Both the position numbers and the translations under genes were made by a program. The notes under the pieces were generated by a model that had not been told where the DNA came from, made no database searches, and worked only from the letters and a program-made list of their open reading frames with translations. From assembly GCF_900106035.1 (NCBI RefSeq), contig NZ_FNUC01000003.1, positions 310,001 to 374,000 on the forward strand: a DNA stretch of 64,000 bases. The letters run 5' to 3'. This DNA is from Jiangella alba. Its GTDB lineage: Bacteria; Actinomycetota; Actinomycetes; Jiangellales; Jiangellaceae. The stretch's first letter is position 1. Each line of letters starts with the position of its first letter. Below, piece by piece: positions 45,162 to 50,645 of the stretch.

Positions 45162-47303
45162 TCAGCGCGTGGCCGTCCGCCCACGGGTGCGGGCCACCAG
45201 CACGCCACCGGCGGCCAGCAGCAGGACCGCGCCGAGCAGCACCCCGGCGCCGGGGCCACCGGTGTCGGGCAGGTCCTCGCCGCTGCCGTCACCGGCCGCG
45301 CCGCCGTCGCTGCCGCCGCCGGACTCGCCGCCCGACTCGCCGGACCCGCCCGAGGCGTCCCCGTCCCCGCCGTCGCCGCCGTCGTCCGAGGACTCGACGG
45401 TGACGGTGACGGAGGCGTCCGAGCCGAGCAGTTCGGGGTCGCCGCCGTCGCCGGCCGAGGCGGTCGCCGTCAGGGTGTAGTCGCCGGCCGCCAGCTCGTC
45501 GGCCGGGGTGAACGTCCAGTCGCCGTCGTCGTCGCGGTCCAGCGAGCCCTCGATGGCGGCCCGGCCGGCGTCGGCCGTCAAGGTCACCTCCAGTTCCGCC
45601 GACGGGTACGAGCCGCCGGCGAAGACCTGGCCCGCGTCCCGCGACGGCTCGTCGATCGTCACGCCCGGCGCGGGGACGCCCAGGTCCGCGACGACGACGT
45701 CCTGGTAGTCGAGGCGGACCACCTGGGTGAGCAGCGCGTCGAAGCGGACGCCGACCGGCAGGTCCGCGTCCGGCGCGAGCGACCAGCGGCCGTCGTCGGC
45801 GACGGTGGCCGAGCCGAGCGCCTCGTCGTCGACGGTGAGGGTGACGGTGCCGCCGGGCTGGCCGGTCCCGGCGAACTCGACGTCGCCGGTCTGGCCGTCC
45901 TCCGGTGACTCCACCGCCAGCGGCGCGACGACCGGGGCCTCGTGCAGGCACGGGTCGGGCCGGTTGACGGGGGAGAGCTGCCGGTCGATGACGCCGCCGT
46001 CCTCGTTGCCGCGGAAGAACAGCCGCTGGACGTCGTCCTCGTCGGTGTCCCACGTCCAGAACAGCCAGCCGGTGAGCTCGAACGCGCAGCTCTCGACCTG
46101 GTGGGCGCGCATCGCCTCGGCGGCGCGGCCGATGTCGTCGCCGTAGCGGTCGCGCTGGGCGCCGAACTCGCCGTTGATCACGACGCCCTCGACCTGCGGC
46201 CACTCGACCGAGTTCAGCGACTCCTCGAGGGTGTACTGCGGCGTCGGGTAGGTGTGGATGTCGAAGAAGTCCAGCGCGGACTCGCGGGTCAGCGTCGACA
46301 CCCGGGCCGGGTAGCGGAAGTCGCCCTCGCAGGCGTCGCCGGCACAGTGCGTGGCGAAGCCGTCGTAGCCGGGCTTGCCCACCGCCCGGTTGGTGAACGC
46401 GCCCATCGTCACCATGAGGTCGGGGTCGACCTCCTTGGCGGCGGCCGTGGCCGCGTCGGCGTACGCGACGATGGTGTCGTCGGCGGCGGCCTGGCGCTGC
46501 TCGGGCACGGACATGTCGTAGGTGGTGCCGTCCGGCGCGGTGAAGGTCCCCGACGCCTGCGCGAACGGCGCCTCGTCGGCGGCGAACGTGGCCTCGTTGT
46601 CCAGCTGGAGCGCCAGGAACGTGCTCATCAGCGGGCCGAGCCGGTCCGTCATCTCCGTGGTGAAGTTGGCGAGGTACGCCTCCTTCGCCGCGACGAAGCC
46701 CTCGTACATGTAGTTCGTGTTGCGGCCCGAGACGTTCTCTGGCGGCGCGCTCTGCGCCACGATGTCGAAGTAGTGCGCGTTCTGCGGGAACGCGTCCAGC
46801 GACGGCAGCACGTACATGCCGTTGGCGGCCGCCCGGCGGACGAAGTCGGCGAGGTTGTCCAGGTACTCCGCGTTGCCGGTGCTGGTGTCGTCGTCGCCGT
46901 GACCCAGGCCGTGCGGCGTGCCGTTGAGGTTGTCCTGGCCGTGGCCGGGGTCGACGAACACCCGGACGGTGTTGTAGCCGGCGGCGCTCTGCTCGGCCAG
47001 CGCGGCGCCGGCCCGCTCGCCGTCGTACTGTCCCGGCTCGAAGGTCGAGTGGTAGGGCTCCTCGGGGTTCCACGGCTGTGGCGCGAGGCGGACGTAGTTG
47101 TAGCCGCGCGGGATGAACGGCCGGCCGGTCTCGGTGTCGACGAGCTGACGGTGCTCGCCGGCGGCGATGCGCGGCAGCGGCTCGGCCGGGTCCTCCCGCG
47201 TCTCGGCCGCCGACGCGACCAGGCCGCCCAGCAGGCTCGTGACGAGCGTCAGCGCGGCCGCACCGCCCAGCGCAGACCGGCTGCGCAGGCTTTTCCGTAT
47301 CAC
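45162..47303 (-). CDS. Cell-wall-anchored GH5-like glycosidase (LPXTG)
   Basis: 713 residues. Signal peptide (ALTLVTSLLGGLVASAA). TIM-barrel domain about 45-440: PRGYNYVRLAP, YNTVRVFVDPG, YVLPSLDAF, acid/base N236-E237 in LALQLDNEATF, nucleophile E379 in GVVINGEFGA, and WLFWTWDT. Two Ig-like domains follow (455-540; 545-630), then a Gly/Ser/Asp-rich linker and the sortase signal LPDTG (678-682), hydrophobic helix and RTRGRTATR tail. GTG 47303 has TGGAG upstream. Clan A glycosidase of mannanase or endoglucanase type; substrate uncertain. Unlike its neighbours it is wall-attached. Confidence 0.82.
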   Translation of the reverse strand: MIRKSLRSRSALGGAAALTLVTSLLGGLVASAAETREDPAEPLPRIAAGEHRQLVDTETGRPFIPRGYNYVRLAPQPWNPEEPYHSTFEPGQYDGERAGAALAEQSAAGYNTVRVFVDPGHGQDNLNGTPHGLGHGDDDTSTGNAEYLDNLADFVRRAAANGMYVLPSLDAFPQNAHYFDIVAQSAPPENVSGRNTNYMYEGFVAAKEAYLANFTTEMTDRLGPLMSTFLALQLDNEATFAADEAPFAQASGTFTAPDGTTYDMSVPEQRQAAADDTIVAYADAATAAAKEVDPDLMVTMGAFTNRAVGKPGYDGFATHCAGDACEGDFRYPARVSTLTRESALDFFDIHTYPTPQYTLEESLNSVEWPQVEGVVINGEFGAQRDRYGDDIGRAAEAMRAHQVESCAFELTGWLFWTWDTDEDDVQRLFFRGNEDGGVIDRQLSPVNRPDPCLHEAPVVAPLAVESPEDGQTGDVEFAGTGQPGGTVTLTVDDEALGSATVADDGRWSLAPDADLPVGVRFDALLTQVVRLDYQDVVVADLGVPAPGVTIDEPSRDAGQVFAGGSYPSAELEVTLTADAGRAAIEGSLDRDDDGDWTFTPADELAAGDYTLTATASAGDGGDPELLGSDASVTVTVESSDDGGDGGDGDASGGSGESGGESGGGSDGGAAGDGSGEDLPDTGGPGAGVLLGAVLLLAAGGVLVARTRGRTATR

Positions 47304-47462: not shown

Positions 47463-48362
47463 TCAGTCCAGGCCGGGGACCCGGGTCAGCTTGTCCGGAT
47501 TGCGCACGCCGTCGATGGCGGTGATGCGGCCCCCGTCGACGGTGAACGCGATGATCGTCAGCGCGCCGTCGAGGTCGGGGCGGACGGCGACGCCGGGCGC
47601 GCCGTTGACGTAGGCCGCGTGCACCTGGAACTCGGCCTTCTGGGCGTAGTGGACCAGCGCGTGCGCGACGCGGTTCGCGCCGTACAGGATCTTCGGCAGC
47701 GTCGAGACCTTGCCGCCGCCGTCGCTGCGCATGACGACGTCGGGGTCGAGCAGCGCGATCAGCCCGGGGAGGTCGCCCTGCTGGCAGGCGGCCATGAACG
47801 CGTCGACCAGTTCGCGCTGCTCGGCGCCGGTGGCCGGGAGCCGCGGCCGGGTGCCCTCGACGTGCCGGCGGGCCCGCGAGGCCAGCTGCCGCACGGCCGC
47901 CGGGGACCGGCCGACCACCTCGGCGATCTCCGGGAACGGCATGCTGAAGACGTCGTGCAGCACGAACGCGGTGCGCTCAGCGGGCGACAGCTGCTCCAGC
48001 ACCACCAGCAGCGCCATGCTCACCGACTCGTCCAGCGTGACGCGGTCGGCAGGATCGTACTCGCGCGTCTCGACCAGCGGCTCGGGCAGCCACGTCCCGA
48101 CGTACTGCTCGCGGCGGGCCCGGGCGCTGCCGAGCGCGTCGAGCGCCAGCCGGCTGACGGTGGTGGTCAGCCAGGCGGCGAGGTCGCGGATGGTGCCGGG
48201 GTCGTCCAGCCCGCGCAGCCGCAGCCACGCCTCCTGCACGCAGTCCTCGGCGTCGGCCAGCGAGCCCGTCATCGTGTAGGCCACCCGCAGCAGCCGCGGC
48301 CGGTTGGCCTCGAACGAGCGAGCCAGCTGGTCGTCGGCGTCTCGTACGTTCATCGCTCCCAT
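47463..48362 (-). CDS. ECF41-group RNA polymerase sigma factor with SnoaL-like C-terminal domain
   Basis: 299 residues. Sigma2 region RSFEANRPRLLRVAYTMTGSLADAEDCVQEAWLRL; sigma4 LSPAERTAFVLHDVFSMPFPEIAEVVGRSPAAVRQLASRARRHV; C-terminal SnoaL-like domain with the two group hallmarks DGGGK and NPDKL. In ECF41 proteins this extension replaces a separate anti-sigma factor. ATG 48362 lies 8 bases after the CGTC of its own ECF41-type promoter, which suggests a leaderless message; ATG 48353 is an alternative. It probably autoregulates and drives the divergent MMPL gene. Confidence 0.9.
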   Translation of the reverse strand: MGAMNVRDADDQLARSFEANRPRLLRVAYTMTGSLADAEDCVQEAWLRLRGLDDPGTIRDLAAWLTTTVSRLALDALGSARARREQYVGTWLPEPLVETREYDPADRVTLDESVSMALLVVLEQLSPAERTAFVLHDVFSMPFPEIAEVVGRSPAAVRQLASRARRHVEGTRPRLPATGAEQRELVDAFMAACQQGDLPGLIALLDPDVVMRSDGGGKVSTLPKILYGANRVAHALVHYAQKAEFQVHAAYVNGAPGVAVRPDLDGALTIIAFTVDGGRITAIDGVRNPDKLTRVPGLD

Positions 48363-48370
48363 GCCAGGTT

Positions 48371-48397
48371 GACGACACAGCCGCCTCCACTGTGACA
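48371..48397 (-). promoter_or_regulatory. ECF41-type promoter of the sigma factor gene
   Basis: Read on the minus strand: TGTCACA (48397-48391), 16 bases, CGTC (48374-48371). This is the published ECF41 consensus with the expected spacing. The sigma start codon follows 8 bases later. Confidence 0.82.
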
Positions 48398-48403
48398 CGT
48401 CGA

Positions 48404-48430
48404 TGTCACACCCCGCCGGGCTACGTCGTC
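48404..48430 (+). promoter_or_regulatory. ECF41-type promoter of the MMPL transporter gene
   Basis: TGTCACA (48404-48410), 16 bases, CGTC (48427-48430). The GTG start of the transporter lies 7 bases further on, so the message is probably leaderless. It mirrors the minus-strand promoter; the two -35 boxes are 6 bases apart. Confidence 0.82.
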
Positions 48431-48437
48431 ACCACAC

Positions 48438-50645
48438 GTGACCACGCCACAGTTGAACCGCGAAGACCAGACCACTCCGCCACCCGCGCGGTCCGGGGTG
48501 TTCGTCCGCATCGCCGGATTCGCACACCGCCGCAAGTGGATCGCCGTGATCCTGTGGGTCGCGGTCCTGTTCGGCGTGTGGGGTGTCGCCACCGCCGTCG
48601 GCGACGCGTACAAGAACGACACCTCCCTCCCCGGCACGGAGGCCCAGGCCGCCGCCGACCTGCTGAAAGAGCACGGCGCGGAGCGGGCCGGTGACACCAT
48701 CGACATCGTCCTGCACGACGAGGGCGGGCTGACCGGTGTGCGGGAGCGCGTCGAGCCGATGCTCGCCGAGGTCGCGGAGCTGCCGAACGTCGGCGACGTC
48801 CTGAGCGTCTACGACAACCCGACCGCCGTCTCCGAGGACGGCACGATCGGCTACGCCACCGTGCAGCTCGAGGTGCCGTCCGACGACATGCCACCGGAGG
48901 ACACCGAGCGCATCGTCGAGGTCGCGCAGGCGATCGAGGGCGACGGGCTCCAGGTCGAGCTGGGCGGTGACGCCGTCCGGCTGATCGCGGAGGCCGAGAC
49001 CGGCGTCGGCGAGGCGGCCGGCTTGTTGGCCGCGATGGTGATCCTGGTGCTGATGTTCGGCACGTTCATCGCCGCCGGCCTGCCCATCATGATCGCCCTT
49101 TTCGCGGTCGGCTCGACGGTCGGCATCATCGTCCTGGCGTCGCACGTCTTCACCATCGCGTCGTGGACGCCGCCGATCATGTTCCTCGTCGGCCTCGGCG
49201 TCGGCATCGACTACGCGTTGCTGATCTTCGCCCGCTACCGGGCCGAGCTGGTGCGCGGCGCCGAGCCGGAACGGGCCACCGTCACGGCCCTGGACGCCGC
49301 GGGCCGCTCGGTGTTCTTCGCCGGCTGCACCGTCATCCTGGCGCTGCTCGGCCTCACCGCCCTCGGCCTCGGCTCGATCCAGGGCATGGCGCTGTCCGTG
49401 GCGCTGACGGTGCTGATGACGATGCTCGCCTCGCTGACGCTGCTGCCCGCGCTGCTCGGCATCTTCGGCAAGCGCTTCGCCCGCCAGTTCCGCGCGCGGG
49501 CCGAGAAGCGCCGGGCCAAGGGCAAGCGCGAGGACGGCGACGGCTGGCGCAAGCTCGCGACGGCGGTGCAGAAGCGCCCGCTGGCGACGCTGCTGGCGGC
49601 GGCTGTGCTCCTGGGCGCCCTCGCCTTCCCGGCGCTGAGCATCAGGCTCGGCTTCAACGACGCGGGCAACGACCCCAGCGACTCCACCAGCCGGCAGGCG
49701 TACGACCTGCTCTCCGACGGCTTCGGCCCCGGGTTCAACGGGCCGCTGCTGGTCGTGACCGACGGCGGCGACGGCAGCGCCGACGAGGCCGCCGCCGATG
49801 CGGCGCGGGCGCTGGGCGAGACCGAGGGAGTCGCGGCCACCGCCGACCCGATCCCCACGCCCGACGGCGAGGCCGCCACCGTCCTCGTCTACCCCACCAC
49901 CTCGCCGCAGGACGGTGCGACCACGGAGCTCGTCCGCACCCTGCGCGACGACGTGCTGCCCGGGCTGACGGCGGACAACGGCGCGGAGTACCTCGTCGGC
50001 GGGGCCACGGCCGCGTCCGAGGACTACGCGGGCAAGCTCTCCGACCGGATGCCGCTGTTCATCCTCATCGTCGTGGGCCTCGCGATCGTCCTGCTGATGG
50101 CGGTGTTCCGATCGGTCCTCATCCCGCTGAAGGCCGCGTTCCTCAACCTGCTCAGCATCGGCGCCGCGCTCGGCGCGATGAAGCTGGTCTTCCAGGACGG
50201 CGCGCTCGGCTTCGAGGGCGGGCCCATCGAGGCGTATGTGCCGGTGATGGTCTTCGCCATCGTCTTCGGCCTCTCGATGGACTACGAGATCTTCCTGATC
50301 TCGCGCATGCACGAGGAATGGGTGCGCTCCGGGGAACGGAACCCGGCGCAAGCCGTGCGGGAGGGCCTGGCCCACACCGGCGGCGTGATCACGGCGGCCG
50401 CCTCGATCATGATCGTGATCTTCGCGGCCTTCGTCCTCAGCCCGCAACGGCTGTTGCAACAGGCGGGCTTGGCCTTCGCGGTGGCGATCTTCGTCGACGC
50501 GGTCATCATCCGGTGCATGGTGGTGCCGGCGGCGATGCAGCTGATGGGACGGCGCGCCTGGTGGATGCCGGCGCCGCTGGCCCGGCTGCTGCCGAAGGTC
50601 GAGTTGGAGCGCACCGAGCAGCCGCTCCAGCGCGTCGACGCCTGA
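48438..50645 (+). CDS. MMPL/RND-family membrane transporter
   Basis: 735 residues, twelve membrane helices in two repeats, each led by a long extracytoplasmic loop. First helix KWIAVILWVAVLFGVWGVATAV; conserved motifs GVGIDYALLIFARYRAEL and VFGLSMDYEIFLISRMHEEW carry the proton-relay Asp-Tyr pairs. Such proteins export lipids or hydrophobic compounds. Start GTG 48438 has no Shine-Dalgarno sequence but stands at the expected transcription start of an ECF41 promoter. Confidence 0.92.
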   Translation: MTTPQLNREDQTTPPPARSGVFVRIAGFAHRRKWIAVILWVAVLFGVWGVATAVGDAYKNDTSLPGTEAQAAADLLKEHGAERAGDTIDIVLHDEGGLTGVRERVEPMLAEVAELPNVGDVLSVYDNPTAVSEDGTIGYATVQLEVPSDDMPPEDTERIVEVAQAIEGDGLQVELGGDAVRLIAEAETGVGEAAGLLAAMVILVLMFGTFIAAGLPIMIALFAVGSTVGIIVLASHVFTIASWTPPIMFLVGLGVGIDYALLIFARYRAELVRGAEPERATVTALDAAGRSVFFAGCTVILALLGLTALGLGSIQGMALSVALTVLMTMLASLTLLPALLGIFGKRFARQFRARAEKRRAKGKREDGDGWRKLATAVQKRPLATLLAAAVLLGALAFPALSIRLGFNDAGNDPSDSTSRQAYDLLSDGFGPGFNGPLLVVTDGGDGSADEAAADAARALGETEGVAATADPIPTPDGEAATVLVYPTTSPQDGATTELVRTLRDDVLPGLTADNGAEYLVGGATAASEDYAGKLSDRMPLFILIVVGLAIVLLMAVFRSVLIPLKAAFLNLLSIGAALGAMKLVFQDGALGFEGGPIEAYVPVMVFAIVFGLSMDYEIFLISRMHEEWVRSGERNPAQAVREGLAHTGGVITAAASIMIVIFAAFVLSPQRLLQQAGLAFAVAIFVDAVIIRCMVVPAAMQLMGRRAWWMPAPLARLLPKVELERTEQPLQRVDA

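Follow-up and report, generated by a model that had tools for sequence, protein, structure and literature searches.

Can a sigma factor gene and a divergent membrane exporter gene share one self-activated promoter region so short that both messages begin at their start codons? The question is raised by a locus in a 64,000-nucleotide stretch of the Jiangella alba genome (contig NZ_FNUC01000003.1, positions 310,001 to 374,000), referred to here as the window; all positions are those of the window. The host is a soil actinobacterium. The sigma gene belongs to ECF41, a widespread group of extracytoplasmic function (ECF) sigma factors, and the exporter gene encodes an MMPL protein. The evidence makes it probable that the locus is a self-contained ECF41 unit near its minimum length, with a two-way self-activated promoter that would serve both genes and give leaderless messages.

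Intergenic region and flanking genes

The ECF41 consensus is TGTCACA-N16(±1)-CGTC (PMC3426412). Exactly two matches to TGTCACA-N14..18-CGTC were found in the 64-kb window, both perfect and with N16, at 48397-48371 on the minus strand and 48404-48430 on the plus strand. They face outward within a gap of 75 bases between two divergent start codons, ATG 48362 (-) of the sigma gene and GTG 48438 (+) of the MMPL gene. The sigma promoter consists of a -35 box at 48391..48397 (-) and, after a 16-base spacer, a -10 box at 48371..48374 (-), from which an 8-nt stretch (48363..48370, -) leads to the ATG. The exporter promoter has its -35 box at 48404..48410 (+), its -10 box, again with spacer 16, at 48427..48430 (+), and a 7-nt stretch (48431..48437, +) before the GTG, upstream of which no Shine-Dalgarno sequence was found. 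The -35 boxes are separated by 6 bp (48398..48403). The 75 bases hold nothing beyond the promoter boxes with their spacers, the stretches of 8 and 7 nt and the 6-bp gap. A sequence-only reading of the window had described the motif on each strand, the 6-base separation, start codons 7-8 bases past CGTC and a GTG without Shine-Dalgarno sequence; all four were borne out, the first by a motif scan of the window.

The sigma gene (47463..48362, -) was likewise confirmed as ECF41 and SigJ-type. Pfam and NCBIfam scans, for which the frame was taken from 48353, gave Sigma70_r2 (56.9 bits) and Sigma70_r4_2 (55.6 bits), both over their cut-offs, and the SigJ model NF007214 with 350.5 bits (cut-off 271) over residues 8-293; the likeness to mycobacterial SigJ consists of this match. 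The SnoaL-like C-terminal extension of about 100 aa that characterises ECF41 factors is present as well, by this match together with a SnoaL_2 match discussed below. DGGGK and NPDK, candidates for two of the three conserved motifs of the ECF41 C-terminal extension, both occur in the protein. WLPEP occurs at residue 91 of the 299-aa form, in the sigma-2/sigma-4 linker, where it is an ECF41 hallmark (Wecke et al. 2012, PMC3426412). The genome holds about 15 ECF41-like genes. A second in-frame ATG, which the sequence-only reading did not bring up, lies at 48353 (+17); the conserved start is the one at +8 only.

The divergent gene (48438..50645, +) encodes an MMPL/RND-type exporter of 735 aa with a GTG start. 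PF03176 (MMPL) matched two stretches of the protein with 303.6 bits, and the orthologs, including those with leaders, share the N-terminal pattern T-x-x-[QE]-L-[ND]-R from the GTG codon onwards.

The genes adjacent to the sigma gene are a glycosidase-like open reading frame (ORF) and the MMPL gene; there is no anti-sigma gene and no COE gene (carboxymuconolactone decarboxylase (CMD), oxidoreductase or epimerase) beside it. ECF41-COE loci have the same sigma architecture and the same promoter, often on both divergent genes, whereas the partner here is an MMPL exporter instead of the usual redox enzyme (Wecke et al. 2012, PMC3426412). In Table 4 of that study, divergent COE loci carry the promoter on the ECF side in 36/55 and on the COE side in 41/55 cases, and 126 loci (34%) have no COE neighbour, so that such loci are already well known. 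Our literature search found no publication joining ECF41 or SnoaL-type ECF sigma factors with MMPL, a combination that the ECF re-classification study may describe as a subgroup. A search for sigma factors with a divergent MMPL family transporter found no ECF41 case in the accessible texts.

Comparison with related genomes

A sigma ortholog (81-100% identity) and an MMPL ortholog (76-100%) were found in the same six of 12 genus genomes; the other six lack both orthologs, and their best MMPL protein is 59-60% identical. All six Jiangella pairs are divergent, keep both promoters with N16 and have the sigma ATG at +8. The MMPL start lies at +7 in four genomes and at +8 in one, and in these five the -35 boxes are 6 bp apart. 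In the sixth (G003) the boxes are 23 bp apart and the homologous MMPL start is an ATG at +60, behind a leader; a GTG at +27 had been considered as its start and was dropped for this ATG. The divergent pair was also found in two Actinomadura genomes, where the sigma proteins are 74-75% and the MMPL proteins 73-75% identical. Both promoters are present there, with -35 box gaps of 11 and 12 bp, sigma starts at +8 (one ATG, one GTG) and MMPL starts at +38 and +61. The sigma start is thus at +8 in 8/8 pairs (7 ATG, 1 GTG), and other in-frame starts shift.

The five short-spaced MMPL genes form one clade (support 100/100 in the MMPL tree, 99/97 in the sigma tree). G003 and the two Actinomadura genes fall outside it, and the order of these three is unsettled in the MMPL tree. 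A single loss in Jiangella, which also has the shortest gap, probably removed the leader of the exporter, and the simplest reading is that the sigma gene would have been leaderless since the origin of the pair.

Among 393 class genomes, a close sigma relative (E up to 1e-90) was found in nine, six of which are the genus members. In the three others an NAD-binding/epimerase-like gene follows an ECF41-like promoter, which has TGTCACG in one of them; the identity of the gene was read in two and from the first bases alone in the third.

The search for divergent ECF41-MMPL pairs in other genomes that the sequence-only reading had called for thus returned six Jiangella and two Actinomadura pairs, with the N16 promoters kept. 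Conservation of both promoters in 8/8 pairs supports the proposed two-way autoregulated ECF41 promoter. The -10-to-start distance, the other feature to be compared, is conserved for the sigma gene in all eight pairs and for the exporter in five, which are a single Jiangella subclade, and not in the remaining three. The prediction of leaderless messages for both genes is supported to the same extent, on the sigma side throughout and on the exporter side in five pairs of eight.

Predicted transcription starts

Leaderless messages are ordinary in Actinobacteria, for example in Mycobacterium tuberculosis, and need no Shine-Dalgarno sequence. The case differs from actinobacterial leaderless transcripts at large in being tied to one sigma factor class and predicted in both directions from one divergent promoter. 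As the gap is filled by promoter elements alone, transcription should start at, or within a base of, the start codons. An external scale is given by the Sinorhizobium meliloti SMb20029-rpoE9 promoter, an ECF41 promoter with N16 as in the window, whose row in Table 1 of PMC6180224 ends at the 9th base after CGTC. This last base was taken as the start on the strength of other rows of the table, which close with a lower-case letter, the sign of a twice-mapped start. The two loci differ in that a CMD gene lies upstream of the S. meliloti sigma gene and is likely cotranscribed with it (PMC6180224), whereas the partner in the window is divergent. Counted in this way in the window, the 9th base past the sigma CGTC falls on the A of ATG 48362, the predicted +1. 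Past the MMPL CGTC it falls on the U of the GUG (48439), so that the start is placed one base earlier, at G 48438. From spacing and conservation we strongly infer that the sigma message would be leaderless, starting at or within one base of its ATG, and somewhat less firmly that the MMPL message would begin at or within one base of its GTG. No passage on leaderless ECF41 messages was found in the literature accessible to the search.

Survey of double promoters

A genome collection described as comprising 84,980 species genomes was scanned for exact consensus copies on both strands with 0-12 bp between the -35 boxes. This gave 56 back-to-back loci, a sample and not a census, since the exact consensus and the 0-12 bp were demanded and the record of the window may be omitted; the window's own locus was excluded from the counts. 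The loci yielded 109 promoter sides with a tail of at least 60 bases, of which 93 were left after near-identical tails had been removed. On these, the ATG counts at offsets 8, 9 and 10 from the -10 box are 15, 9 and 7, in all 31; the expectation is 4.0 if based on offsets 11-31 and 6.2 if based on all other offsets between 3 and 61. A second ATG peak lies at offsets 33-42.

Fifteen of the 93 sides had no usable frame, or a first start outside 7-11 and below 18 nt, and were left unclassified. Of the remaining 78, 34 have their first start at 7-11 nt and 44 at 18 nt or more. A Shine-Dalgarno 4-mer was found on 0/34 of the short and 30/44 of the long sides. By phylum, as assigned from record titles, the 34 short sides comprise 31 from Actinomycetota and three from Chloroflexota/Dormibacterota; the 11 sides classified from Pseudomonadota, Bacillota and Acidobacteriota all belong to the long class (Fisher P 0.0016 vs Actinomycetota). 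At 12 loci both sides start at 7-11 nt and head a long ORF. One of these (L082) is the Jiangella pair itself, and at another (L084) one side may reflect a wrong frame. In a phylum sample, a double promoter with 0-30 bp between was found in 4/396 genomes, and two of the three non-genus genomes of this sample have the sigma start at +10 or +11.

ECF41 genes of Actinomycetota therefore often start 8-10 nt past the -10 box, which is a broader and, in our view, more useful result than the single locus, and leaderless ECF41 messages look common in this phylum, judged from these distances. The short distance recurs on about one third of back-to-back ECF41 promoter sides; if it stands for leaderless messages, the start codons and leaders of such genes need re-annotation. 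A wider generalisation, possible but less likely than not, is put forward tentatively. In Actinomycetota, and in some Chloroflexota, ECF41 promoters may commonly sit directly on the start codon, making the stress units a leaderless regulon whose output would stay translatable when Shine-Dalgarno-dependent initiation is impaired. Head-to-head pairs leaderless on both sides would then have arisen repeatedly, with oxidoreductase, hydrolase, glyoxalase, short-chain dehydrogenase, DoxX, ABC ATPase, CMD and MMPL partners, as minimal two-way cassettes on which polymerases are mutually exclusive and self-amplification of the sigma factor trades off against effector output.

Regulatory model and alternatives

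In the proposed circuit, a small or hydrophobic compound would be sensed, probably by a SnoaL-like tail of the sigma factor, and would switch the factor on. Polymerase carrying this sigma factor would use both head-to-head ECF41 promoters, one driving the sigma gene itself in a positive feedback and the other the MMPL exporter, by which the compound would be removed and the signal lowered and ended. Translation of both messages would proceed with neither leader nor Shine-Dalgarno sequence. About 76 bp lie between the two predicted starts, a distance at which two holoenzyme footprints would overlap. With the -35 boxes only 6 bp apart and the footprints overlapping, two polymerases should therefore not fit at once, and the two directions of transcription probably compete. 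ECF41 tails are inhibitory domains thought to respond to small molecules (review, PMC8999054); a divergent MMPL partner suggests that some ECF41 members sense a compound that is then exported. Comparing Jiangella with Actinomadura amounts to a natural experiment in which one gene, under one promoter, is leadered in some genomes and predicted to be leaderless in others, and a region of about 75 bp would make a very compact two-way promoter part.

Several observations weigh against the leaderless two-way unit. The case for the exporter is weakest in that a strict 9-nt rule would put its transcription start one base past the first base of the GTG. For the two ECF41 genes whose starts Wecke et al. 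(2012, PMC3426412) mapped, the leaders are 22/23 nt long, with a ribosome-binding site, whereas no leader is predicted on either side in the window. Table 5 of that paper has, under '5'UTR', 31/32 for the same two genes, which conflicts with 22/23 as labelled; a count from the motif end in the table would account for the difference of 9. The exact TGTCACA-N16-CGTC motif occurs eight times in the 7.68-Mb genome, the window pair included, and four of the other six sites head genes at about 33-67 nt from the start; one has a start at +8, and one heads no ORF above 120 aa. On the sigma protein, the SnoaL_2 match at residues 183-264 (E 8e-6) reaches 26.8 bits, just under the Pfam cut-off of 27. In the survey, the contrast in Shine-Dalgarno 4-mers between short and long sides is biased because the fixed CGTC occupies the scanned stretch of the short class; on one short side (L060, minus) AGGAGG stands right before the ATG, nearer than the scanned stretch. 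Finally, in an independent sample of 148 class genomes, in which every exact promoter match with an ATG within 30 nt was taken and the gaps were clustered, the peak is weak, with 9/60 gaps at 8-10 (P 0.19) and 7/60 at exactly 8 (P 0.005), a possible reason being that chance hits within genes make up many of the exact matches.

Three other explanations were considered. The sigma gene might be autoregulated while the MMPL gene is driven mainly by another promoter or regulator, with a minor part for the plus-strand site; or both promoters might be read by another of the genome's ECF41-like paralogs, of which there are roughly 14. The size of this paralog family fits such a view, as do a second divergent ECF41-MMPL pair of the genome with a promoter on the sigma side only, and the more distant MMPL homologs: at six of the seven loci examined, the flanks of about 1.5 kb contain no ECF41-like gene (a TetR-like gene at one of them), and at the seventh, in G010, an ECF41-like gene lies about 0.8 kb away. 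It is nevertheless unlikely: the plus-strand site is perfect and kept in 8/8 pairs across two genera, and no sigma-70-like promoter, nor a terminator, was found when 48200-48600 was searched. It is also quite unlikely, and a little more so, that the ECF41 promoters are real but translation of one gene or both begins at a later start codon behind a short leader, ATG 48353 for the sigma gene or a downstream GTG for the MMPL gene. GGGAG closely precedes ATG 48353, and in some orthologs the sigma match begins a few residues in. The GGGAG is, however, only 2 nt from that ATG, and G005, G001, G003 and the two Actinomadura pairs lack the +17 ATG, whereas the +8 start codon is present in 8/8 pairs; for the exporter, conservation of the N-terminus from the GTG, leadered orthologs included, speaks against a later start.

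That the motifs are chance matches and not promoters is extremely improbable, and this origin was rejected. Shuffled windows gave 0.23 expected matches (spacer 14-18), and at least two in 2/100 shuffles, so that the number of matches by itself is only mildly unusual. The arrangement is taken as non-random because the motifs lie head to head in a short gap beside an ECF41 gene and are conserved in the relatives, with N16 on both strands; the reversed pattern has 0 matches in the genome, against eight for the motif itself.

Partner genes and further loci

For the surveyed loci, partner frames were picked by bias in third-position G+C content (GC3) and by length, on which account single assignments may err; eight partner-side positions had no usable ORF. 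A Pfam scan covered 64 partner-side ORFs. The assignments of single genes named here were read from sequence. Among the 25 most frequent of 35 families, with several families possible per protein, were Epimerase (11), CMD (10), DoxX_2 (9), short-chain dehydrogenase (5), MMPL (4), ABC_tran, enoyl-CoA hydratase and pyridine-nucleotide oxidoreductase (3 each) and cytochrome b (2). The four MMPL loci among the 56 are two from Jiangella and two from Actinomadura. MMPL as a general ECF41 partner theme was rejected on this count (4/64 ORFs). The exporter partner is real but rare, and one of several non-COE partners; the claim that an MMPL gene replaces the COE gene holds at this locus and is limited by lineage, to 4/56 double-promoter loci and 6/12 genus genomes.

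A second transporter class was seen at L102, L111 and L106 (actinobacterial, Dormibacterota), where divergent ECF41 promoters face ABC-transporter ATPase genes. At two Nonomuraea loci (L059, L107), back-to-back ECF41 promoters lie upstream of a cytochrome b gene (QcrB-like by eye), an unexpected target for a stress sigma factor.

In the window itself, the sigma gene is followed immediately, on its own strand, by an ORF (45162-47303, -) for a GH5-like glycosidase with Ig-like domains, and the ORF past the MMPL gene resembles a GntR-type regulator by eye. Elsewhere in the same genome (G000), the second divergent ECF41-MMPL pair (C4 ~489171, L019/L151) encodes an MMPL protein about 29-32% identical to that of the window; its promoter, on the sigma side only, is followed by a leader. 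This pair also occurs in G001 and G010, and its counterpart in G006 and G007 showed no MMPL match within the 7 kb examined. Closer MMPL paralogs (66-67%) were found at G000:C4:3633455 (L051), with a TetR-like gene beside it, and in G010 (L050), preceded at about 0.8 kb by an ECF41-like gene on the same strand. An ECF41 promoter with an ATG at +8 also precedes a 132-aa ORF, J-domain-like as read from its sequence, at G000:C4:2317645-2317682 (-) (L007/L164). A like promoter with a +8 ATG is present in G001, G004, G009 and G010, and this ORF is possibly another leaderless ECF41 target.

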